The notes under the pieces: model-generated | Told to the model about the DNA's origin: nothing | Database searches by the model: none | Seen by the model: the letters and a program-made list of their open reading frames with translations, nothing else | Shown here: positions 47,843-59,000 of the stretch, piece after piece | Layout of the letters: the number at the start of each line of letters is the position of its first letter | How positions within the stretch are numbered: position 1 is the first letter of the stretch | Made by a program: the position numbers and the translations under genes | DNA from: Zobellia galactanivorans | GTDB lineage: Bacteria; Bacteroidota; Bacteroidia; Flavobacteriales; Flavobacteriaceae | Length of the DNA: 64,000 nucleotides | Reading direction: 5' to 3' | Assembly (NCBI RefSeq): GCF_000973105.1 | Contig: NC_015844.1 | Span: forward strand, 2,414,501 to 2,478,500

Positions 47843-48508
47843 TTAAGGGCGTTTTCGTTGTCGTGATGCTTTAAACTGTACTTGAAAGATCTCTTCTTCG
47901 GTCAGGGCGTAAATTTCGTGGTCTGCCTGAGGTTCGAGTACGTGGGTGCCGGTAAAGGTCCCGAAAGCGGGTAAGATCATCTGGTGGGCAGATTTAAAAA
48001 AACAGGCTAAGCGTATCGATTGTCGCCCCATGCCTTGTAGGCGAACCGCAGGATGTATGTGTCCGCAAAAATTGAAGCAAGCCTCCCGCTCTTCAGGGTG
48101 GTGGGTCAGTAAAAAACCGTCTAAGCATATTTCTGAAACGACCTGTATTCCCAGTGCTTCATATTTCAGGGGGGAAATGATATCGTGGTTGCCGGCTACT
48201 AAAATGACTTCGGATGAGATAGTGGCAATCCAGTTTTCGAACAACTTCCATTCCTTGTTCAAGGCAGAATGAAAGAGGTCGCCCATAAAGACAATCACCT
48301 GGGGTTGAAACAAGTCGATGGCCTTGTCCATTTTTTTAAAATTGGTTTGTACTGCCGCTTGGGGTACGGCCGCCCCAAATTTCCTGAAATGCGAAATCTT
48401 CCCGAGATGCACGTCGCTAATGAGCAGCATTGATTTTTCCTTCCAGAAAAGAACTCCGGACGGATGCATGGTGAAATGGTGATCTTGTATAACGAGGGGA
48501 TGGGCCAT
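47843..48508 (-). CDS. pdeM: Ligase-associated metallophosphoesterase PdeM
   Basis: A 221-residue calcineurin-like phosphoesterase: LLISDVHLGKISHFRK, FMGDLFHS, VAGNHD, LTHHPE and FCGHIHPAVRL give the full set of metal ligands. This form is the ligase-associated endonuclease PdeM that accompanies the Lhr-like helicase, LigC-type ligase and MBL exonuclease in many bacteria. Those three partners lie at 53823-59000 on the same strand, separated from it by a secreted nuclease gene and a lipocalin-like gene. The usual set is therefore present but interrupted. Confidence 0.87.
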   Translation of the reverse strand: MAHPLVIQDHHFTMHPSGVLFWKEKSMLLISDVHLGKISHFRKFGAAVPQAAVQTNFKKMDKAIDLFQPQVIVFMGDLFHSALNKEWKLFENWIATISSEVILVAGNHDIISPLKYEALGIQVVSEICLDGFLLTHHPEEREACFNFCGHIHPAVRLQGMGRQSIRLACFFKSAHQMILPAFGTFTGTHVLEPQADHEIYALTEEEIFQVQFKASRQRKRP

Positions 48509-48607: not shown

Positions 48608-51600
48608 TTATTCCTTGATCAGTTTAAAGCTTTCGACGAGGTCCCTGCCGTCGTAAATGCTTAATACATAAACCCCTTTTCTCAGGTAAAACGGGTATAG
48701 CTTCTTTTCGCTGGTGTTTTTTGGGATCAAGGTGCTGTAGACCCATCTTCCGTAGGTGTTGTAGAGTACGGCCAGGTAATGGTCGGGCGTCGGCTCGGAA
48801 AAGGCGATGGTGGTACTGTGCCTGAATGGGTTGGGACTTACCTTTATTTCCAAGTCTACCGGGGGCAGGTCTTCACAGCTTCCCAAACTGGCCCCTTTTC
48901 TTAAAAAGGACGATACGGCATATTTTGAAATGCACAAGGTCCGCCCCTTGTAACAGACCTGAACCTTGGGGTTTCTCGGGTTGTTGCCACAGCTTACGTC
49001 GTCGACGGCCACTTCGATGGCCTTGCTTGCCGAACAGCCATTTTCGTCGGTTACCGTAACGGTATACGTGGTCGTTTCCTCGGGGCATACCGCTATTTGC
49101 TCCGTGGTTTCACCGGTACTCCATTCATAGGTGTAGCTGCCTTCGCCGCCCATAACCTCCAAAACGCCAAGGGTAGTACAGTTTTCGTTGCCGTAACCGA
49201 TGGTGACCGTTGTATCCTCGGAAACGATCAACTCCAAGGCACTTGGTTCATAAACGGTAATGGCGGCCTCAAAACTGTTTTGCAGGGCATCGCTAACCTG
49301 GACGGAATATTCGCCGGGTTCGAGTCCTTCGACGGTCGGGGTGCTTGCCCCGTTGCTCCACACATAGGTGTAGGGGGCAAGGCCCCCGGATACATAGACC
49401 GTGGCCCTACCATTGTTTTCCCCGTAGCAGCTTACGTCGGTTTTGGCAATGCTGTCCAAAACAAAGGGTTTTACCAGCATTCGTACCGATACGGGAAAGT
49501 GATCCGAAGCCGTCTGGGTGTAATCGCTGTCGTAGAACTCGTAGTGCACCTGGGCCGATTGGTCGATATAGTTTCCGGCCAATTCGTCGGTGACCAAAAT
49601 ATGGTCGATCATGTTTTCCCGAAAGGCATACGACCGGAAGCCTTGTTCGCTAAGGACGTCGGTGAGTATGTCGAAATTTGCCGTATCGGAAACATAGGCC
49701 TCATAGGTAGAGGCGGTAGAGGCCACATCGTCGGCCACCGTTTCGTCCACATCATCGTTGTAATCGCCGAGCACTACCAAATTGCTGTCGGCGTAGTATT
49801 GGTTGAGGCTGTCCCTGAGGACCTCTACATCGTATTTGCGCATATCGTAGCGCTCCTGTGCACCACTACTGCCGTTGGCCCGGGCATGCAGGGCCACAAA
49901 ATCGTAGGCCACTTCGGTACTGTCAATGGTGACCGTGGTCGATATTAAAAAGGGCAGCCTTCCGCTGGCGTAGAAACGGTCGGCATCGCTGGGGTAATCC
50001 GTCAAGAAGGAAGTATCGCCGCCGTTGTAATAGGGATGGATGCTTTCCAAAAGGACCTGGGTATCGGTAACGCTCACCACGTCGGTTTTGTAAATGAACC
50101 CGACTTTTTGGCTTACCCCCGGATCATTGGGATAGGAGGTTGCGGGCGATAGGATGTAGTCGTAGCCCTCCAGTTCGCTCACCATCGTGGCAAACAATGC
50201 GTCGTCGGATATTTCCTGAACGGCCATGATATCGGGGGCGATGCTTTGGATGACCGCCTTTACACTGTCTTTTTGTATCGCATCGGAATCGGGGCTTCCG
50301 GCAGCGGGCGAGTTGCCCTCGTCTCCGAACCACTCGATATTCCACGTAGCGATTTCCAAAGTCTGGTCCGCATCGACTTCAATCGGCAAGGTGGGTGCCT
50401 CATAGGGTTGTGCGCAGGCAAGGTCCGACCTGTTTCTGGGCAATAATTGATAGAATTCGTAAAAGCGGCCGACTACCCCGATGACTTCGTCGCACGATTC
50501 GGGTTGGGCCAAACCGACAAGCGCCTCTACGTCGTTATCTATACGCAGTTCCCCGGAACCACTGGCATCCGAAACGAGGTAATTCGAATCTCCGAAGAGC
50601 AGATTGCCGGGACTGGGAAAGGATAGGTTCGCAACCTTCACCAACTGACCGGGGTATTGCGAAAGCTGATCGAGGGTAATTTCCAAAGGTTCGATAGGGT
50701 TGTTGGGAGTTCCGTTGTTGATGACTTCGGTAATGGGACTGATCTGCAGCTGTTCGTTATAGGAACTTCGCACCCCTACAAGGGTAATGGAATCGCCAAC
50801 TTGAAAAACGCCCTTGCCATGAACCTTTTCGTCGAAAACGGCAATGGCCCCAGTTTCGTCCTGTATGTAGGCCGAACCGGAAAACTCGTCGGCTACGGTC
50901 AATATCCCCGAGATGGAGACCAGGGTGCCGTCGGCGGCAGCGCGGGCATCGCTGATGGAAATGGGATCCGGATTTTCGGTGCCTCCGTCCCCGCCGCCAA
51001 AAGTACCGATGGGAAAGGGCAAGGATGCCGTGCCGTTGGTGGCGCTTCCGTCCAAAACATCGGTGCCGCTATAGGTCCAGTCGTCGAGAACAAAGGCTCC
51101 GTTGTTCAATGTACCGTCCTTTCTATAGGCCCACCCGTCGAGATAGTCCCAGGTTTGCCCCGAGCCATTTACGTTGATGTTGCCAAAGGTATCGATCACC
51201 CCGCCTTTGTAAAAGAGTTCCACGGCGTCGTCGCCGTTTACGGAAACGGAGTTTGACGTGTATTCGGGGGCAAAGCCAAAATACGCGGTAAAACCATCGA
51301 TGTCGGTCGCTAGGTAGATGTAGGTGTTCGCCGGAACGGCGACCGCGGGAAAGGTAAATTCCTCCCCGTCGCTACCCCCGCCGTTGTTGGCCGAACCAAA
51401 GCCGTACAGGCTAAGGTCGGCAATGGCATTGCGGGCATATAGTTCGACCGCCTTGGGTACGCCGCCGGATAGGGGGCCGTCGACAATACCGGTGATCATC
51501 AAATCGGGACCGTAGGATTGTAAGGGAAAGGGGGTAGCCGCCGTGGCATTGGTCAGTTCACCGTCCAGGGCATTGATCCCGCTAAAAATCCAATTGTCGC

Positions 51601-52948
51601 TATCGAAGCTTCCGTTGTTGGCGGGAACTTCGTCCTTTCTATAGGCCCATCCGTCCAAATGGTCCCAGGCTTCGCCTGATCCATCCGTGTCAATGGCCCC
51701 GAATACATCGATTACGGATCCGTTCAAGAACAATTCTACGGCATCGTCGCCATTTATGCCCATGGCGCCGGTGGTATAATCGGGGGCAAAGCCGAAAAAG
51801 TCGGTAAAGCCCTCGGTTTCCGACGTTACATAAATAAACTGACCTGCCTGTAGGGCATCGGCGGGAAAGGTAAATTCCTGTCCGTCGCTGCCCCCGCCGT
51901 TATTGGCCGAACCTATACCGTATACGCTCAGGTCGGGAATGTCGGTGGCGGCATAGAGCTCGACGGCCTTTGGTGTGCCGCCGGAGAGCGGCCCGTCTAT
52001 GGCCCCGGTGATCACCAACCCCGCTTCGACCGGTGTGTCCGATTCGGTACGGGCACTTATTGCCACTCCCAGGGAGTATTCGGTGGCCGGGGTCACCGAC
52101 CAAAGTTTGTAGAAATATTCGGTGTTGGGACTTAGGCCACTGTGTTGAAAAAGGGTTGGGTTTCCCGTGGTCAATACGGTACTGCCGTCCGATAGGGTCT
52201 CACCCGTAGTGTACGTTTGTCCGTCTACCAAGGAGGCGGTAATGGGAGCGGTAGAGACCGCCAAGACAACGGCGTCGTTATCGGCGTTCAAGGCCCATGT
52301 CAAATCGATGGCCGTGGTGCCTTGAACCGTGGTGGCAAAGCTGGTAGGGTTGGCGATAAGCGTTGTTCCGCCGCCGCCAAAAGTGCCGATAGGGAAGGGC
52401 GAGGCCGCCGTCGCGTTCGAGGTGGCAGTATCGAGGGCGTCCGGGCCACTGAATACCCAGTTGTCCAATATAAAGGTGGCGCCATCCGGTCCGGTACCGT
52501 TCTTTCGGTAGGCCCATCCATCGAGGTATTCCCAGGGTTGTCCGTTTCCATCGACATCGATATCGCCGAAAGTGTCGATTACGGTGCCCTGGTAGAAGAG
52601 TTCGATGGCATCGTCCCCGTTTACATTGGCCGCGGAATCTTCGTAGTCGGGTGCAAATCCGAAGAAATTATTGAATTCGACCGCTTCGGAGGCAAGGTAG
52701 ATGTACGAGCCCGAAGTGGCCGTGGTGGCCGGAAAGGTAAACTCTTCTCTGTCGCTACCTCCACCATTGTTTGCCGAACCGATGCCATAGGCACTTAAAT
52801 CGGCAATGTCGTTCGCTACGTAAAACTCAATGGCCTTGGGAAGGCCACCGGGCAATGGTCCGTCTATGACCCCGGTGATTTTTAGGTCCTGTGCAAAGAC
52901 ACCCAGGGTCAAGGTTAAAAAAAGCACTAGCAAGTAATTTTTTTTCAT
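48608..52948 (-). CDS. Secreted multidomain nuclease with lamin-tail-like repeats, DNase I-like domain and type IX sorting domain
   Basis: A 1446-residue exported protein with a signal peptide ending LGVFAQ. Three homologous ~170-residue modules lie at residues 21-191, 311-480 and 482-652. Each carries ITG.IDGPL.GG.PKA, GSANNGGGSD and NGDDA.ELF, resembling lamin-tail-type domains; a fibronectin-III-like module separates the first two. An OB-fold/DUF5689-like region follows (about 660-850), then an endonuclease/exonuclease/phosphatase domain at about 865-1160 with Asn870, Glu872, Glu912, His1021, Asp1062, Asn1064, Asp1115, Asp1149 and His1150. A SprB-type repeat and a type IX C-terminal domain end the protein. 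It should be an extracellular DNase. The gene is markedly GC-rich compared with its neighbours. Confidence 0.87.
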   Translation of the reverse strand: MKKNYLLVLFLTLTLGVFAQDLKITGVIDGPLPGGLPKAIEFYVANDIADLSAYGIGSANNGGGSDREEFTFPATTATSGSYIYLASEAVEFNNFFGFAPDYEDSAANVNGDDAIELFYQGTVIDTFGDIDVDGNGQPWEYLDGWAYRKNGTGPDGATFILDNWVFSGPDALDTATSNATAASPFPIGTFGGGGTTLIANPTSFATTVQGTTAIDLTWALNADNDAVVLAVSTAPITASLVDGQTYTTGETLSDGSTVLTTGNPTLFQHSGLSPNTEYFYKLWSVTPATEYSLGVAISARTESDTPVEAGLVITGAIDGPLSGGTPKAVELYAATDIPDLSVYGIGSANNGGGSDGQEFTFPADALQAGQFIYVTSETEGFTDFFGFAPDYTTGAMGINGDDAVELFLNGSVIDVFGAIDTDGSGEAWDHLDGWAYRKDEVPANNGSFDSDNWIFSGINALDGELTNATAATPFPLQSYGPDLMITGIVDGPLSGGVPKAVELYARNAIADLSLYGFGSANNGGGSDGEEFTFPAVAVPANTYIYLATDIDGFTAYFGFAPEYTSNSVSVNGDDAVELFYKGGVIDTFGNINVNGSGQTWDYLDGWAYRKDGTLNNGAFVLDDWTYSGTDVLDGSATNGTASLPFPIGTFGGGDGGTENPDPISISDARAAADGTLVSISGILTVADEFSGSAYIQDETGAIAVFDEKVHGKGVFQVGDSITLVGVRSSYNEQLQISPITEVINNGTPNNPIEPLEITLDQLSQYPGQLVKVANLSFPSPGNLLFGDSNYLVSDASGSGELRIDNDVEALVGLAQPESCDEVIGVVGRFYEFYQLLPRNRSDLACAQPYEAPTLPIEVDADQTLEIATWNIEWFGDEGNSPAAGSPDSDAIQKDSVKAVIQSIAPDIMAVQEISDDALFATMVSELEGYDYILSPATSYPNDPGVSQKVGFIYKTDVVSVTDTQVLLESIHPYYNGGDTSFLTDYPSDADRFYASGRLPFLISTTVTIDSTEVAYDFVALHARANGSSGAQERYDMRKYDVEVLRDSLNQYYADSNLVVLGDYNDDVDETVADDVASTASTYEAYVSDTANFDILTDVLSEQGFRSYAFRENMIDHILVTDELAGNYIDQSAQVHYEFYDSDYTQTASDHFPVSVRMLVKPFVLDSIAKTDVSCYGENNGRATVYVSGGLAPYTYVWSNGASTPTVEGLEPGEYSVQVSDALQNSFEAAITVYEPSALELIVSEDTTVTIGYGNENCTTLGVLEVMGGEGSYTYEWSTGETTEQIAVCPEETTTYTVTVTDENGCSASKAIEVAVDDVSCGNNPRNPKVQVCYKGRTLCISKYAVSSFLRKGASLGSCEDLPPVDLEIKVSPNPFRHSTTIAFSEPTPDHYLAVLYNTYGRWVYSTLIPKNTSEKKLYPFYLRKGVYVLSIYDGRDLVESFKLIKE
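50993..52888 (-). repeat. Three internal repeats coding lamin-tail-like modules
   Basis: Within the nuclease gene, 52376-52888, 51509-52018 and 50993-51505 encode homologous modules of about 170 residues with the same motif order. This is a protein repeat, not a mobile or CRISPR repeat. The second and third copies are adjacent. Confidence 0.8.
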
Positions 52949-53293
52949 AGCGTTGTTTTTTAAAAAGGGTTTAACCTTACAAAGGTTGTAAAATACCGTT
53001 TGTTAAGAGTGTGCTCAAATTTAAGATTAGGTTAACAAGTTAAAAAATATCCAATCCTTTACTTGGTCAACATTTGGGTCATCCGTTTGATTCGGTCGGC
53101 CAATTTTTCACTGGATAATTTCTCCCGGTTTAAACGGTCGGTTATTAAGGGAAAGGACGTAAATTTTTTGGGTTTGTAATGAAATTTTGATTCCGTATTA
53201 CTACAGATTTACTGGTGAAAATCAAAAAAAATAATAAATCAAAAAATGCTCCGTTTTTTTAAATCAATGAAAAAAACCTAAAACTATTACCTT
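52949..53293. other. Intergenic region with a helicase relic
   Basis: The 345 bases hold the upstream region of the secreted nuclease gene, a degenerate copy of an Lhr helicase 3' end (53059-53208, listed separately), and an A/T-rich upstream region for the lipocalin-like gene. Confidence 0.65.
53059..53208 (-). pseudogene. Relic of an Lhr-type helicase 3' end
   Basis: On the minus strand this stretch reads 49 codons from just after a stop (53211-53209) to a stop at 53061-53059. The last ~35 codons are plainly homologous to the end of the intact Lhr-type helicase at 53823. FPLITDRLNREKLSSEKLA aligns with FPLITDRMSREKLSSEKLA, and DRIKRM is shared, giving 21 identities in a block of 23 residues. 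There is no start or upstream helicase sequence. It is a leftover of a duplicated or replaced helicase gene, now separated from the intact copy by the lipocalin-like gene. Confidence 0.85.
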
Positions 53294-53734
53294 ATGAAAA
53301 AAAGTTTTATCCTATTCGGTGCCATTGCTTTTGGTTTATTTTCGTCATGTAGCGACGATGACAGTTCAGATAGACCTGAAGATGCATTGATAGGTTCTTG
53401 GCAGCTTGTTTCGCAATCTGAAAATGGGAGGTCGTACGAGCTGGATGCATGTGAATTGGAAGAAACGGTTATTTTTAAATCCGGCGGAACTTTTGAGCTG
53501 ATTGATTATGATCAAGTGGAGGGGAACGAAAATCAGTGTGTCATAAACGCCGATGCTACCATGTCGGGCGAATGGTCTATACCAGAGCCGGGCAAAGTGT
53601 TGGTTGTCGATGAAGACAATGAGGCCGTTATGGTGGATTACTCCGTTTCTGGGGCTAAACTGATTTTTATAAGTGAAGGGATTGATGATTATGTCGGGGC
53701 TTACACCCGTACGTCCGTTTACAAGAAAAAATAG
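53294..53734 (+). CDS. Lipocalin-like lipoprotein
   Basis: A 146-residue lipoprotein. The lipobox LFSSC gives an acylated cysteine around residue 19, followed by an acidic SDDDSSD linker. The rest is a small beta-rich domain with IGSWQLVS and TVIFKSGGTFELIDYD, the pattern of lipocalin-like/DUF4923-type lipoproteins common in Flavobacteria. It is the only plus-strand gene between the helicase relic and the intact helicase gene, and it has its own terminator. Ligand and role are unknown. Confidence 0.78.
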   Translation: MKKSFILFGAIAFGLFSSCSDDDSSDRPEDALIGSWQLVSQSENGRSYELDACELEETVIFKSGGTFELIDYDQVEGNENQCVINADATMSGEWSIPEPGKVLVVDEDNEAVMVDYSVSGAKLIFISEGIDDYVGAYTRTSVYKKK

Positions 53735-53822: not shown

Positions 53823-56291
53823 TTAGTTCTTCATCAATAAAGCGGACATCCGCTTGATACGGTCAGCTAATTTTTCACTAGATAGCTTTTCACGACTCAT
53901 ACGGTCCGTAATTAATGGAAAGGCAAACGGAGTTGCTTTTATACAGGGTTTCCAAACAATCTCCTGTTCCGCAATACGCTCTAAGGAAAGTCGCAAACGG
54001 CCTTCTTCCAGCTGGTGCTGAAAGGTTTCCGTAAAGGCTTGTTGAAAGAGTAGGTTTTCTGGTTCGTAATCTCGGAAAACTTCAAAAAGCAATTGGGAGT
54101 TACTTTGCAAATGTTTCATTTTAACGCCCTTGTTCGGGTAACCGGTAAACACCATTCCACTGATAATGGCAATATCACGAAATTTACGACGTGCCATTTC
54201 CGTGGCATTCAGGCTGTTTTGTAAATCGTCCAGTAAATATTCAGAGGTAAACAAATCATTGTCAATGACCTGTTGAATATCTATCTCTTGGTCGGAAAGC
54301 AACTCAAAACCATAGTCGTTAAATGCCAATGAAAAAGTGATAGGAGATAGTAAACTGATGCGATAGCCTAAAAGACTGCCCATGGCCTCGTGAACAAAAC
54401 GTCCTTCAAAAGGATAGAATAGATGATGGTAGCCTTCACGTGTTTTAAAGGTTTCAATCAGGAATTCATTTGGGTTGGGAACAATACTTTCACGCCTTTG
54501 ACGCTCGAATATATGGGCTAGGGCACGTATTTCTATCGATTGGTATTTTTTATCTTCACTGGAAGTATACAGTTCTTCTCGTAGTAATTTGGACATCTGG
54601 GCCGATAGGGTCATACGACTTCCGGACCAGCTAGAAATTTTATTGGTCTTTTTGGTCGAGTTTCGAACGTGTACCTGCATGTCCTTTATTCTAATGAATT
54701 CAAGGTTTCTACCCGCAAACGTAAAAACATCCCCTCTATTTAATTTCGAAATAAAGAACTCTTCTATGGAGCCAATATATCCTCCCTTTTGATAACGGAC
54801 GGTTAGGTTTACATCACCCACAATGGTGCCAATCTGAAAACGGTGCCGCATGGCAACGCCACGGTTATTTACTTTAAATTTTCCGTCTTCTTCAACTTCT
54901 ACTTTTTTGTATTCATCGTATGATTGTAGACTCTGACTGCCCATAACCAAAAAGTTGAGTAACCATTGCCATTGGTCTAAGGTCAAAGTTTGATAACAGA
55001 ACGTTTGACGGACTTCCTTATAAATATCATCAGGATAAAACCCGTCAGAAATAGCCAACGTAGTTAAATATTGCAGTAATACATCGTAGCAGTTAAGGTA
55101 GGGCATGCGGTCTTCTACGGCATTGTGTTTTACCGCTTGCTGTAATGCGGAGGCCTCAATCAGCTCAATGGCGTGGGTGGGTAAAAAATAAATTACGCTT
55201 TCTTCGCCTGGCCTATGTCCACTACGGCCCGCACGCTGTAAAAAGCGAGCTACGCCTTTGGGGCCGCCAATCTGGACTACGGTTTCAACTGGGGCGAAAT
55301 CTACTCCTAAATCCAAACTAGAGGTGCAAACTACTGCTTTTAATTCTTCGTTTCTAATGGCATTTTCAACCCAATTGCGGGTATCTTTATTAATACTGCC
55401 ATGATGCATGGCAATATCTCCTGCATATTCAGGATGTTTTTCCAGAATTTTCTGGAACCATATTTCACATTGGCTACGCGTATTTGTAAATAGTAGGGTA
55501 GTTCTGCTGTTATTGATTATAGGAACAACATCTTCCAGCAAATGCAAACCCAAATGGCCACGCCAAGGAAAGGTTTCCATCTTTTTTGGAATGATACTTT
55601 TGACCGTAATTTTCTTTTTAATATTAGCCCGTATCATTACAGAATTTTCCAAGGCTTCCGTTTCTGGCCCCAGAAGCACGTCCCGAGCTTGCTCTAAATT
55701 GCCGATTGTAGCGGAAATTCCCCAAATACGAAGGTCTTTTGAAATGGTTTTCAATCGGGATAAGGCCAGTTCCATCTGAACGCCACGTTTGGTGCCCAGC
55801 AGCTCGTGCCACTCGTCAACTACAATAGCAGAACAGTCTTTAAAAATTTTATCGTAGCCTTTTGTGGCCAATAAGAGTTGCAGGCTTTCTGGCGTGGTAA
55901 TCAGCAAATCGGGCATTTGCTTTTTTTGACTTGCCCGTTCTTTTGTGGTCGTATCACCGGTACGGATACCAACGGTCATTTGCGTTTCCAAATCGGCAGT
56001 AACTCTTTCTGCGGATTGTCTAATTTCTTGGGAAAGGGCCCGTAACGGGGTAATCCATATCGCTTTTAATCCTTTTTTGTGCTTGGTCTTGTACTGCGGA
56101 TTTTTTTTGATGTAGTTTAAAACAATAGGAAACCAAAGAGCATAGGTCTTACCACTGCCTGTTGGAGCGTTCAATAGTCCGTTTTTACCTTGTAGAAATG
56201 CTTTCCAAGTGTCTTTTTGAAACTTGAAGGGTTTCCAGTTCTGTTGGTCGAACCAATTTTGAGCAATATGGTAAAGTTCTTCTCTATTCAT
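53823..56291 (-). CDS. Ligase-associated DEXH-box helicase (Lhr-C type)
   Basis: An 822-residue superfamily 2 helicase. Walker A is GLLNAPTGSGKT (about residues 35-46), motif II VVDEWHELLG, motif III ISATIGN, motif VI FLQRAGRSGHRPG. The C-terminal region with the winged helix and the ending LSSEKLADRIKRM is that of ligase-associated helicases. It probably moves on single-stranded DNA 3' to 5' in a repair pathway with the ligase, exonuclease and PdeM. The ligase gene lies 7 bases upstream, so exonuclease, ligase and helicase form one operon. A relic of a second copy's 3' end lies at 53059. Confidence 0.92.
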   Translation of the reverse strand: MNREELYHIAQNWFDQQNWKPFKFQKDTWKAFLQGKNGLLNAPTGSGKTYALWFPIVLNYIKKNPQYKTKHKKGLKAIWITPLRALSQEIRQSAERVTADLETQMTVGIRTGDTTTKERASQKKQMPDLLITTPESLQLLLATKGYDKIFKDCSAIVVDEWHELLGTKRGVQMELALSRLKTISKDLRIWGISATIGNLEQARDVLLGPETEALENSVMIRANIKKKITVKSIIPKKMETFPWRGHLGLHLLEDVVPIINNSRTTLLFTNTRSQCEIWFQKILEKHPEYAGDIAMHHGSINKDTRNWVENAIRNEELKAVVCTSSLDLGVDFAPVETVVQIGGPKGVARFLQRAGRSGHRPGEESVIYFLPTHAIELIEASALQQAVKHNAVEDRMPYLNCYDVLLQYLTTLAISDGFYPDDIYKEVRQTFCYQTLTLDQWQWLLNFLVMGSQSLQSYDEYKKVEVEEDGKFKVNNRGVAMRHRFQIGTIVGDVNLTVRYQKGGYIGSIEEFFISKLNRGDVFTFAGRNLEFIRIKDMQVHVRNSTKKTNKISSWSGSRMTLSAQMSKLLREELYTSSEDKKYQSIEIRALAHIFERQRRESIVPNPNEFLIETFKTREGYHHLFYPFEGRFVHEAMGSLLGYRISLLSPITFSLAFNDYGFELLSDQEIDIQQVIDNDLFTSEYLLDDLQNSLNATEMARRKFRDIAIISGMVFTGYPNKGVKMKHLQSNSQLLFEVFRDYEPENLLFQQAFTETFQHQLEEGRLRLSLERIAEQEIVWKPCIKATPFAFPLITDRMSREKLSSEKLADRIKRMSALLMKN

Positions 56292-56298
56292 GTATGGG

Positions 56299-57963
56299 TT
56301 AAGGAATCATCAACTTTAAATCCCCTAAGGAATTGGCTTCGTGAATAGTTTTATCTTTTCTCCACCTCAATATTCTCGGAAACCTGGTGGCAACCCCACT
56401 TTTATGGCGCTTTGATAAGGCTATGCCTTCAAAGGCAATTTCAAATACATGATGTGGAGTAACCGAGCGCACTGGTCCAAAACGTTCCAAGGTGTTTTTC
56501 TTAATCCAAGCATCTACCTTTCTAAACTCGGCATCGGTAAGACCGGAATAGGCTTTGGCAAAAGTAACCAGTTCTTTTTCGCCTTCATCGTTGGTGTTCC
56601 AAAGTGCAAAGGTATAATCTGTAAACAAATTACTGCGTCTACCATGACCTCGCATAGCGTAAGTGAGTACGGCATCAATAGTTAATGGGTCTACTTTCCA
56701 TTTCCACCAATCGCCTTTTTTCCGACCTACTAAATAAGGAGAATCTTTGTGTTTTAACATGAGTCCTTCACTGAACATTTCACGGGAACGCTCCCTTTCT
56801 ATGGCTGCCTCTTCCCAAGAATTAAAGTGCATGGTTTCTGAAAGGTGAAAAGGTAAGTCAGTATGGTTTACCTCCTTGAATAATTTTTCTAAGATAGCCC
56901 TGCGTTCGGTAAAAGGTTGGTTCCGAATATCCTTTCCTTTCCATTCTAAAATATCATACGCCTTTAAAATAACAGGTACTTTCTTGAGTAAAGCCTTGGA
57001 AATCATTTTGCGACCTATGCGTGTCTGTAAATCATTAAATGTGCCTATTTGCCCATCTATATAGGGTAATATTTCTCCATCAATTACAGTACCGTTTGGT
57101 ATTTTTTGAATAAATAGGTTGAATTCCGGGTACTTATCGGTGACTAATTCTTCACCACGGCTCCAGACGAATAGCTCATCATTTCTAAGGATTACCTGTG
57201 AACGGATACCATCCCACTTATGCTCGGCGGACCAATGGGTAACATCGCCTAAATCCTCTGGTTCATTTTCAATGGCGTAGGCCAGATAAAACGGATAGGG
57301 TTTGGATAGATAGTCGCTTTCATTTTCTTCTAAAATAAGTTCTTGAAAGGTGATTTTGTTTGGGTCCCAGTTTCCCATAAGTTTATAGGCCAAAATATCC
57401 TCATCTATTTCCGTTGCTTTGGCCAAGGCTCGGGTCATTAATTTTTGACTGACACCAATACGGAACCCTCCGGTAATCAACTTGGTAAAAACAAAACGTT
57501 CGTAGTAATCGAGTACTTTCCAGTTCTCAAAGAGGTAGGTTTTTTTGTCGACGTCGGATTTCTTCTTCAACGCAATCATCTCCTCTAGAAATTGGGTCAG
57601 TGTTTTTTCTGTGGATGTTTTGCTAGATGGTACAATGAGAGCAATGGTTTCCGCCAAATCGCCCACAATGTGATAGCTCTCTTCAAAAAGCCAAAGGGGG
57701 ATATTCGCCAATTCAGAAGCCCATTCGCGCAGCAGTGTGGTGTTAACGGGTCTAGGTGGTCTACGATGAGATAGAATAGCAATGGTCCATACCTTATCCG
57801 TATCATTAGCAACCCGAAAATAGTCGGCTAAAGCCTGAACCTTTATATTAGTTTTATTGGTGCTGTCCAGTGTTTTTATTAGTGCAGCGAATCCTCTCAT
57901 GCCCAATTCATTTGATGCAATGGAGGTTGGGACATCCATTTCTGATATTGTTTGTGGTTTCAT
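56299..57963 (-). CDS. ATP-dependent DNA ligase of the ligase-associated repair operon
   Basis: A 554-residue ATP-dependent ligase. The adenylated lysine is Lys249 in EHKWDGIR, with later nucleotidyltransferase motifs GTVIDGEILPY, SEGLMLKHKDSPY and GDWWKWKVD, and an OB domain. The start at 57963 overlaps the exonuclease stop by 4 bases (ATGA), but the usual N-terminus of the family (MRGFAALIKTLD) begins 21 codons later at 57900, so the first 21 residues may be extra. The enzyme joins nicks in a repair process shared with the helicase and exonuclease, distinct from the replicative NAD-dependent ligase. Confidence 0.92.
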   Translation of the reverse strand: MKPQTISEMDVPTSIASNELGMRGFAALIKTLDSTNKTNIKVQALADYFRVANDTDKVWTIAILSHRRPPRPVNTTLLREWASELANIPLWLFEESYHIVGDLAETIALIVPSSKTSTEKTLTQFLEEMIALKKKSDVDKKTYLFENWKVLDYYERFVFTKLITGGFRIGVSQKLMTRALAKATEIDEDILAYKLMGNWDPNKITFQELILEENESDYLSKPYPFYLAYAIENEPEDLGDVTHWSAEHKWDGIRSQVILRNDELFVWSRGEELVTDKYPEFNLFIQKIPNGTVIDGEILPYIDGQIGTFNDLQTRIGRKMISKALLKKVPVILKAYDILEWKGKDIRNQPFTERRAILEKLFKEVNHTDLPFHLSETMHFNSWEEAAIERERSREMFSEGLMLKHKDSPYLVGRKKGDWWKWKVDPLTIDAVLTYAMRGHGRRSNLFTDYTFALWNTNDEGEKELVTFAKAYSGLTDAEFRKVDAWIKKNTLERFGPVRSVTPHHVFEIAFEGIALSKRHKSGVATRFPRILRWRKDKTIHEANSLGDLKLMIP

Positions 57964-59000
57964 GATGTTTGCTTTTCTAGGGTTGCTGTTTCATCAGGAA
58001 CCGTATTGTCCTCTTCGTCTCCATATTGGGTTTCTTCGGTACGTGCATCATAACCCTGTTCGCGCAGGAATCTAGAAAATATTTCCGTATACCCGTGGGT
58101 ACAAATGATTTTTTCCGCTCCGGTGGCTTCAATGCTGGATAAAAGTCCTTGCCAGTCGCAGTGATCGCTCAAAACGAAACCTTTATCAATGGCCCGACGC
58201 CGACGCGCTCCGCGAAAGGTCATCCAACCACTGGCTGAAGCTGTTACGTAGGGCACCATTTTACGAATCCATGTACTGCCGTGAGCACTGGGTGGAGCCA
58301 GAACAATGTTTCCCAATAGTTCTTCTTTTTTGGTTTCCTTGGTAATCAAGGTCGTTTCTGGAAAATCAACCAGTGGGCGCAATACTTGGGTCATGTTTTC
58401 AATGGCGCCATGGGTATATATTTTTCCAATATCGGTGTCAAGATATTTTAGGAGACGCTGTGCCTTGCCTAGACTGTATCCGAATAAAATTGAAGTTTTG
58501 CCTTCAGATTTGTTCTCTTCCCACCATTGGTTGATATTCTCGAAAACCTCTTGTTGAGGTGTCCATTTAAAAGCGGGAAGTCCAAAAGTACATTCCGTTA
58601 TGAAAGTATGGCATTTAATAGGTTCATAGGGAGTTGATATACCGTCGTTTTCGGTTTTGTAATCGCCCGTAAACACCCATACTTCACCCTTGTGTTCTAC
58701 GCGAACTTGGGAAGAACCGATGATATGGCCAGCTGGATGTAAGCTGAATTTTACATTGTTTATGCTAAAAGTTTCGCCCCATTCTTTTCCGGTCACATTA
58801 ATTTCGCCCAAACGATGACTAATTATAGGTACATTTCTATGATGCGTAATGTATTGTTTATGTCCCCATCTACTATGATCTGCATGACCGTGGGATATTA
58901 TGGCCTTATCTACAGCTCTCCATGGGTCTAGATAAACCTTGGCGACACTGCAATAAATACCTTTATCGGTGAATTCGAGAAGTGGATTTTTCATGTTCAT
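57960..59000 (-). CDS. Ligase-associated MBL-fold exonuclease
   Basis: A 346-residue metallo-beta-lactamase-fold nuclease of the SNM1/CPSF-like type. The metal motif HGHADH lies at residues 37-42, with further ligands in HPAGHIIGSSQ, FTGDYKTEND and LSDHCDW. It is the first gene of the exonuclease-ligase-helicase operon and shares 4 bases with the ligase gene. The family is expected to process DNA ends before ligation. Met3 at 58994 is an alternative start. Confidence 0.92.
   Translation of the reverse strand: MNMKNPLLEFTDKGIYCSVAKVYLDPWRAVDKAIISHGHADHSRWGHKQYITHHRNVPIISHRLGEINVTGKEWGETFSINNVKFSLHPAGHIIGSSQVRVEHKGEVWVFTGDYKTENDGISTPYEPIKCHTFITECTFGLPAFKWTPQQEVFENINQWWEENKSEGKTSILFGYSLGKAQRLLKYLDTDIGKIYTHGAIENMTQVLRPLVDFPETTLITKETKKEELLGNIVLAPPSAHGSTWIRKMVPYVTASASGWMTFRGARRRRAIDKGFVLSDHCDWQGLLSSIEATGAEKIICTHGYTEIFSRFLREQGYDARTEETQYGDEEDNTVPDETATLEKQTS

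Follow-up and report, generated by a model that had tools for sequence, protein, structure and literature searches.

A Hybrid Helicase-Tail Relic as the Probable Remnant of Gene Replacement in a DNA-Repair Operon of Zobellia galactanivorans

The Locus

The window analyzed here, 64,000 nucleotides of Zobellia galactanivorans (contig NC_015844.1, positions 2,414,501 to 2,478,500), contains all four members of the ligase-associated DNA damage response cluster, each scoring above its NCBIfam cut-off (pdeM with 229.7 bits against 150, and the rest as given in Table 1). We take PdeM to be the MPE of the Lhr-Core/MPE cluster. In the usual, although not universal, order of this cluster the helicase is directly followed by pdeM, which is not the case here: a gap of 5318 bp separates the two genes and holds a lipocalin-like gene, a helicase relic and a nuclease gene. 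The nuclease-like protein (1446 residues, encoded by a 4.3-kb gene) matches Exo_endo_phos (1.1e-13) and SprB (5.5e-15) in Pfam and has a type IX sorting-like tail, with Por_Secre_tail (1.6e-4) staying below its cut-off. It also carries repeated N-terminal units and DUF5689, and the GC3 of its gene is 0.64, compared to 0.38–0.54 in ten measured neighbors.

The genome holding the window (G000) is closed, and its 5,521,712 bases were the scope of the whole-genome search. Comparison was made with eight sister genomes of the same genus (G001–G008), of which G007 is the nearest sister; L handles denote individual loci, L073 being that of Pseudozobellia thermophila and L041 that of G006. The helicase is present at this locus in all nine genus genomes searched. 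The helicase–pdeM interval contains a lipocalin gene in five of the eight sisters (G001, G002, G003, G004 and G006), and in the other three (G005, G007 and G008) the two genes nearly touch. The nuclease gene was detected at E 1e-20 in one of the nine genus genomes and in none of the sisters.

Table 1. Features of the locus, with positions in the window.
Feature	Position	Strand	Basis
pdeM, ligase-associated endonuclease (TIGR04123)	47843–48508	−	First ~8–12 codons Pseudozobellia-type, then sister-type
Secreted endonuclease/exonuclease/phosphatase-family protein, probably imported cargo	48608–52948	−	Pfam; 88% to P. thermophila
Spacer from relic stop to nuclease start, Pseudozobellia-type	52949–53058	−	93 of 109 nt to the lhr–nuclease spacer of P. 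thermophila
lhr relic, 3′ half with stop, Pseudozobellia-type tip (...LADRIKRMTQMLTK, stop)	53059–53104	−	39 of 43 nt to P. thermophila
lhr relic, 5′ half, sister-type (FPLITDRLNREKLSSEK)	53105–53154	−	47 of 50 nt to G007; extra codon of G000/G007-type alleles
Possible further decayed lhr sequence (weak)	53155–53169	−	Local alignment to G007, p 0.02; not significant to 6 other alleles
Second relic, putative pdeM start like those behind the lipocalin gene in some sisters	53170–53209, may reach 53232	−	Shuffle p
Lipocalin-like lipoprotein gene, antisense to the operon	53294–53734	+	Pfam Lipocalin_4, 5.5e-10; same place in 5 of 8 sisters
Intact Lhr-type helicase (TIGR04121)	53823–56291	−	1130.7 bits, cut-off 850; allele unlike the sister's
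ATP-dependent DNA ligase (TIGR04120), same allele block	56299–57963	−	633.8 bits, cut-off 400
Ligase-associated exonuclease (TIGR04122), same block	57960–59000	−	468.8 bits, cut-off 325

The Helicase Relic

The minus-strand frame closed by the TAA at 53059 reads ...FPLITDRLNREKLSSEKLADRIKRMTQMLTK up to its stop, and the intact helicase ends in FPLITDRMSREKLSSEKLADRIKRMSALLMKN followed by its own stop; over the block LITDR..KRM, 21 of 23 residues are identical. When the intact protein was used as query against the whole genome, the relic was matched at 78% identity over residues 790–821 (E 2.6e-8), and the six other partial matches of the same search, with 22–29% identity, look like ordinary helicases. 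The helicase-tail relic is real, in frame and far beyond chance, and the first-pass annotation had described it correctly as a copy of the C-terminus with a stop at almost the same codon. The interval 53059–53208 assigned to it was too generous, since firm helicase homology covers 53059–53154 and weak traces reach 53169, while the remainder is better read as a decayed start of pdeM. The relic was also considered as a small gene and rejected, as no gene is evident there and the first usual start in the frame (ATG, GTG or TTG) comes only at codon 36 of 50, stop included. It has no function that we can see.

With the DNA of 53059–53293 as query against the nine genus genomes, the best non-self match is the helicase tail of G007 (89% over 80 bases, E 6e-23), and the genome's own intact helicase ranks behind those of G005, G003 and G008 (79% over 80 bases, E 2.4e-12). 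The relic and the intact copy are, then, not each other's closest relatives, as a simple partial duplication would have made them.

Base by base, the relic turns out to be a recombinant of two helicase tips. Across its 93 coding bases compared, the 5′ half (50 nt) shares 47 with G007, 42 with the next best allele, 38 with the intact copy and 29 with P. thermophila, and the 3′ half (43 nt) shares 39 with P. thermophila, 34 with the next best, 31 with the intact copy and 29 with G007. Sites informative between G007 and P. thermophila number 28; the leading 16 are all G007-type, and all but one of the remaining 12 are Pseudozobellia-type. A single switch point, placed between core positions 44 and 50 (53110–53104), fits 27 of the 28, a result equalled by none of 20,000 shuffles. 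The proposal that an old 3′ end was left behind stands for the sister-type half and has to be amended for the other, which is of Pseudozobellia type.

The hybrid ends in MTQMLTK, which is similar to the tip MTRMLTK found in P. thermophila, L082 and L083, all of them nuclease-bearing; other tips occur in the four Flagellimonas/Allomuricauda loci with a nuclease that were part of the tip comparison. By tip type, the relic belongs to DRL.REK with the extra codon, which is the type of the three lipocalin-less sisters, and the intact helicase has the type DRMSREK of the lipocalin-bearing G002–G004. A third type occurs in the lipocalin-bearing G001 and G006, which means that the link between tip type and lipocalin is not strict. 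The helicase-tail comparison used 42 of 45 sequences (L197, L202 and L206 were left out) and holds repeated genomes (L203, L199, L216, L219 and probably L217). Of the 50 bases in the sister-type half of the relic, 3 differ from G007, not fewer than two separate species would be expected to show. Therefore, the age of the scar can be close to that of the split between G000 and G007, and the "fairly recent" date given to the exchange by the first-pass annotation holds only loosely.

The Nuclease Gene and Its Borders

Donor-type DNA flanks the nuclease gene on both sides. Upstream, the spacer between helicase and nuclease is 110 bases long here and 109 in P. thermophila; spacers that do not adjoin the nuclease gave, between G000 and P. 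thermophila, alignments barely above shuffled sequence, from which no control rate was obtained. Downstream, pdeM begins with 13 informative sites (columns 1–24) of P. thermophila type, columns 26 and 35 point one each way, and from column 36 (48472) onwards at least 14 consecutive sites are G007-type. The switches thus fall at 53104–53110 in the helicase tip and at ~48472–48484 in pdeM. As Pseudozobellia-like DNA extends from the helicase tip into the pdeM start, the nuclease gene appears to have entered the lhr–pdeM junction by crossovers in both neighbors. The helicase of P. thermophila is G006-like up to its tip, and P. thermophila should consequently be regarded only as a proxy for the donor. 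In a later stretch of pdeM many sites are P. thermophila-like and not G007-like, perhaps owing to another exchange, in G007 or here.

On a saturation-scaled measure, the 4-fold divergence between G000 and P. thermophila is 0.51 (0.45–0.56) for the nuclease gene, 0.70 (0.64–0.77) for mfd and 0.74–0.84 for eight other genes; terB is nearly as low as the nuclease gene (0.55, 0.34–0.79), with only 31 sites. Among 110 loci with nuclease relatives, the own one included, the order helicase–nuclease–pdeM is found in eight distinct loci outside the genus: L073 (P. thermophila), L082 (Croceivirga), L083, and L074, L076, L085, L087 and L105 of Flagellimonas/Allomuricauda. In L075 the helicase and nuclease genes are followed by the contig end, and two further loci seem to be repeats, L044 of L073 and L045 of either L082 or L083. 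For the loci L043–L072 no more than 1.5 kb was available to either side of the match, so that missing neighbors there say little.

A Second Relic and the Lipocalin Gene

A short segment resembling the start of pdeM separates the lipocalin promoter from the helicase relic. In a shuffle test the p values, uncorrected for nine comparisons, were <0.001 for G001, 0.002 for G004, 0.004 for G003 and 0.034 for G002, and there was no significance against the pdeM of G006, G007, G005, P. thermophila or the genome itself. Ungapped identity is 26–27 of 42 to G001, G003 and G004 and 20–23 of 42 to the other seven rows, and the alignment of about 40 bases is in register with the flanking lipocalin promoter. 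We give moderate weight to the view, resting on a short, decayed run of some 40 bases, that 53170–53208 is better explained as a decayed pdeM start than as helicase. This pdeM start abuts helicase sequence 95–110 bases upstream of the helicase stop, and on visual inspection the two share at most a few bases. The second relic suggests that incoming helicase–lipocalin–pdeM DNA was attached by its end to the tail of the old helicase.

The lipocalin gene itself is nearly saturated against all five genus homologues (0.65–0.77), and its GC3 is 0.42, compared to 0.18–0.27 in those homologues. Its presence in the same place in five of eight sisters led us to reject it as the newly inserted element that the first-pass annotation had offered as an option. 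The gene unique to G000 in the helicase–pdeM slot among the genus genomes is not the lipocalin gene; it is the 4.3-kb secreted nuclease.

Descent of the Operon

The intact operon is of a descent different from that of its surroundings. Between G000 and G007, the 4-fold difference is 0.37 for the helicase, 0.37 for the ligase and 0.36 for the exonuclease, against 0.12–0.19 in eight flanking genes and 0.14 in rpoB, which lies far away on the chromosome (0.43–0.46 to the other seven). Between G000 and G004 the relation is reversed, with 0.25, 0.26 and 0.30 for the three operon genes and 0.56–0.77 in the flanks, where unlike GC3 between G000/G007 and other Zobellia partly inflates the differences. 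The flank tree, built from seven flanking genes, and the rpoB distances pair G000 with G007; a warning of uneven base composition applies to 7 of the 12 rows of that tree, G000 and G007 included. Both trees have 12 rows, with fbp, gnat and g61 missing from G002 because its contig breaks off. The operon tree pairs G000 with G004 (96/99), G007 with G002 (100/99) and G006 with P. thermophila (100/100), and the single-gene operon trees leave several forks open.

Approximately unbiased (AU) tests agree with this conflict. For the operon, they reject G000 with G007 (p 5e-46) as well as the genus as one clade (p 4e-58); for the flanks, they reject G000 with G004 (p 2e-71) and, less strongly, G006 with P. 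thermophila (p 0.015). These results point to exchange of the operon as one block, inside the genus and in one case between genera. In G006 and P. thermophila the operon differs by 0.19–0.21 and the flanks by 0.61–0.75, the likeness ending inside the helicase tip. The operon allele of G007 is mixed with a G002-like lineage (0.22–0.33, vs 0.54 in the flanks), so G007 is no clean picture of the native state. Too much should not be made of these exchanges, since some pairs, such as G002 and G003, are no closer in the operon (helicase 0.24, ligase 0.26, exonuclease 0.44) than in rpoB (0.21).

The first two 120-base windows of the exonuclease gene of G000 are 97 and 94% identical to G007, which places the left border of the block in or near this gene, blurred by other exchanges, and the last ~450 bases of the helicase are no longer G004-like. 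The GC3 of the block, 0.38–0.40 against ~0.5 in most flanks, was considered as a sign of foreign origin and dropped, since the same genes have 0.34–0.51 in nine other Zobellia/Pseudozobellia genomes. Within the helicase, around codons 550–630, the G000-type allele and the G006/G001/P. thermophila allele group share only 51–62% DNA identity in windows from alignment bases 1653–1773, with ~62–82% in neighboring windows, a dip as if a domain had been exchanged or were under different selection.

Proposed History and Alternatives

We consider it fairly probable that the relic is the 3′ tip of a former resident helicase, left over from the exchange of the helicase that precedes it, and that the nuclease gene came first, followed by lipocalin-bearing DNA and the exchange of the operon. 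An ancestor with the helicase directly followed by pdeM, as in G007, would have recombined with Pseudozobellia-like donor DNA consisting of helicase tip, spacer, secreted nuclease, spacer and pdeM start. One crossover ~16 codons short of the helicase stop and another inside the first ~12 pdeM codons would have added the nuclease gene and produced the hybrid tip. Zobellia-type DNA with the order helicase–lipocalin–pdeM would have come in next. Its distal end, with a break in the pdeM start, would have been joined without evident homology to the old helicase 95–110 bases before the stop, and the remainder of the old helicase gene would have been lost, as the two adjoining relics imply. In the same event or a separate one, exonuclease–ligase–helicase alleles would have been swapped by ordinary homologous recombination. 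The data show the mosaic edges and the tree conflicts; from them we infer who the donors were, in which direction DNA moved, how many late events there were and in what order, and whether the last two steps were one. The lipocalin gene and the intact helicase need not share one donor, as the former is nearly saturated against its homologues whereas the latter is 0.25 from G004.

Replacement, one of the simplest explanations named by the first-pass annotation, is favored over duplication, the other, by the greater closeness of the relic to the G007 helicase than to the intact copy and by the separate history of the exonuclease–ligase–helicase block from flanks and rpoB. The reading as a whole draws on the mosaic of the relic, the helicase–nuclease–pdeM synteny elsewhere, the near-equal spacers, the low divergence of the nuclease gene, the tree conflict, the tip types and the pdeM-start relic. 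A copy made from the 3′ end of the intact helicase during insertion of a neighboring gene would account for the distance of only 0.7 kb between the two and for their ending at almost the same codon. We find it very improbable nonetheless, because the intact copy falls below G007 in one half of the relic and below P. thermophila in the other, because its tail is also the less similar over the 80 bases aligned, and because the DNA downstream of the relic is Pseudozobellia-type into the next gene. Duplication as the sole explanation was rejected, and it survives only with a later exchange of the intact gene, which is the replacement model again.

Two other histories were weighed. The chief alternative turns the last steps around: the order helicase–lipocalin–pdeM would have been native, with one late fragment (hybrid tip, nuclease and pdeM start) anchored by pdeM homology and joined illegitimately at its left end to the resident pdeM start; the relic would then be foreign and the intact helicase resident, and the donor would already have carried the hybrid tip. 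That order occurs in five of eight sisters and in G234 and G082, the lipocalin GC3 is nearer to that of its own flanking genes than to that of its genus homologues, and the two pdeM breakpoints lie close together (~codons 9–16), on which point a single insertion is the simpler account. We nevertheless regard it as unlikely, since the 5′ half of the relic looks like the orthologue of the nearest sister and the pdeM-start relic is unlike the start in G007 or G002 (21 of 42 in both cases), which speaks against a native origin; moreover, the intact operon is far more distant from G007 than its flanks are. Retention of an old helicase–nuclease–pdeM order, inherited vertically here and lost in eight sisters with only the front helicase replaced, would suit the occurrence of that order in Pseudozobellia, Croceivirga and Flagellimonas/Allomuricauda. 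Such a history seems to us decidedly improbable: the nuclease is closer to P. thermophila than nine other genes (terB, on its 31 sites, comes near), the nearest sister is without it, and both edges switch to sister-type inside coding sequence, so that G007 would need to have lost it by replacement with the same edges.

Relation to Known Processes

Remnants of this sort are known from type VI secretion (T6SS) effector/immunity loci, for which Kirchberger et al. (2017, PMC5361080), who also mention Rhs genes, describe replacement that leaves old 3′ material downstream of the new copy and propose a homologous anchor at one end and an illegitimate junction at the opposite one. Our reading of the relic shares with them the replacement of a gene by incoming DNA and the persistence of its old 3′ part downstream. 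In contrast, those loci keep whole immunity genes or toxin 3′ regions, whereas here a helicase tip of ~100 bases with no evident function remains in a DNA-repair operon. The scar would thus represent a known process in an unusually legible example, and no new gene type. The end-on joining that we propose, with one homologous and one illegitimate junction, would likewise match homology-facilitated illegitimate recombination as outlined in PMC3240628, although here it is reconstructed from the product and its homologous end is inseparable from later operon exchanges.

The entry of the nuclease gene is comparable to additive gene transfer, in which, according to Kloub et al. (2024, PMC11375855), genes are added by recombination in flanking regions: a new gene sits between two conserved ones and a neighbor may be partly replaced, as with the nuclease and both of its neighbors. 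The present case differs in having edges pinned down to within about a dozen bases, one of which later became stranded in the relic. With respect to the bacterial cluster of Lhr-Core and MPE (Ejaz and Shuman 2018, as cited in PMC8301817), the helicase, ligase, exonuclease and PdeM are all here, with the difference that 5.3 kb separate the helicase from pdeM, so that the two are not adjacent.

We think that the value of the scar lies in the readable preservation of breakpoints from past swaps, which helps to order events that are usually deduced from trees alone. Besides documenting the exchange of a DNA-repair operon as a block, the locus illustrates how a large secreted nuclease gene can slip between two conserved operon genes by way of their ends. 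More tentatively, and with considerable doubt of our own, the exonuclease–ligase–helicase genes of Zobellia and Pseudozobellia might be an exchangeable allele block, the conserved edges of which (helicase tip and pdeM start) dock cargo genes, with selection for diverse alleles. If that were true, at least three cross-species exchanges, including one between genera (G006 with P. thermophila), would reflect selection for diverse alleles of the repair operon and not chance, and the cargo at the docking edges would be the nuclease and lipocalin here and receptor or transporter genes in other genera.

The Interval in the Family

A survey of 397 family genomes (helicase E 1e-150, pdeM E 1e-25) found both helicase and pdeM in 144. 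The gap between them is <150 bp in 94, 150–800 bp in 20 and 0.8–20 kb in 18, and in 12 they are not neighbors in this order; gaps were measured between matched stretches, and a truncated match (G044) overstates its own. Genomes with >400 bp between the two genes on one strand number 30. In 28 of these (G000 and G001 having been covered by the genus search), a search with the tip peptide found no second helicase tip: 27 gave one match each, always in an open frame of 820–884 codons, that is, a full gene, and G344 gave none. The tip peptide is a weak probe for divergent helicases, and G359 was matched only at 5.9e-4. The scar itself seems to be unusual among the family genomes, and the literature on the process, the operon and the genus, as far as titles tell, gave no account of it, which is no proof of absence.

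The intervals elsewhere hold other genes. In G388 a lipocalin gene lies before pdeM and is separated from the helicase by ~4 kb of other genes; judging from the look of the sequence, this part (L194, 5581–9332) presumably carries TonB-receptor-like and PepSY-like genes. What we take, on a similar look, to be a sugar-transporter-like protein is encoded in the interval of G383, G224, G229 and G025.
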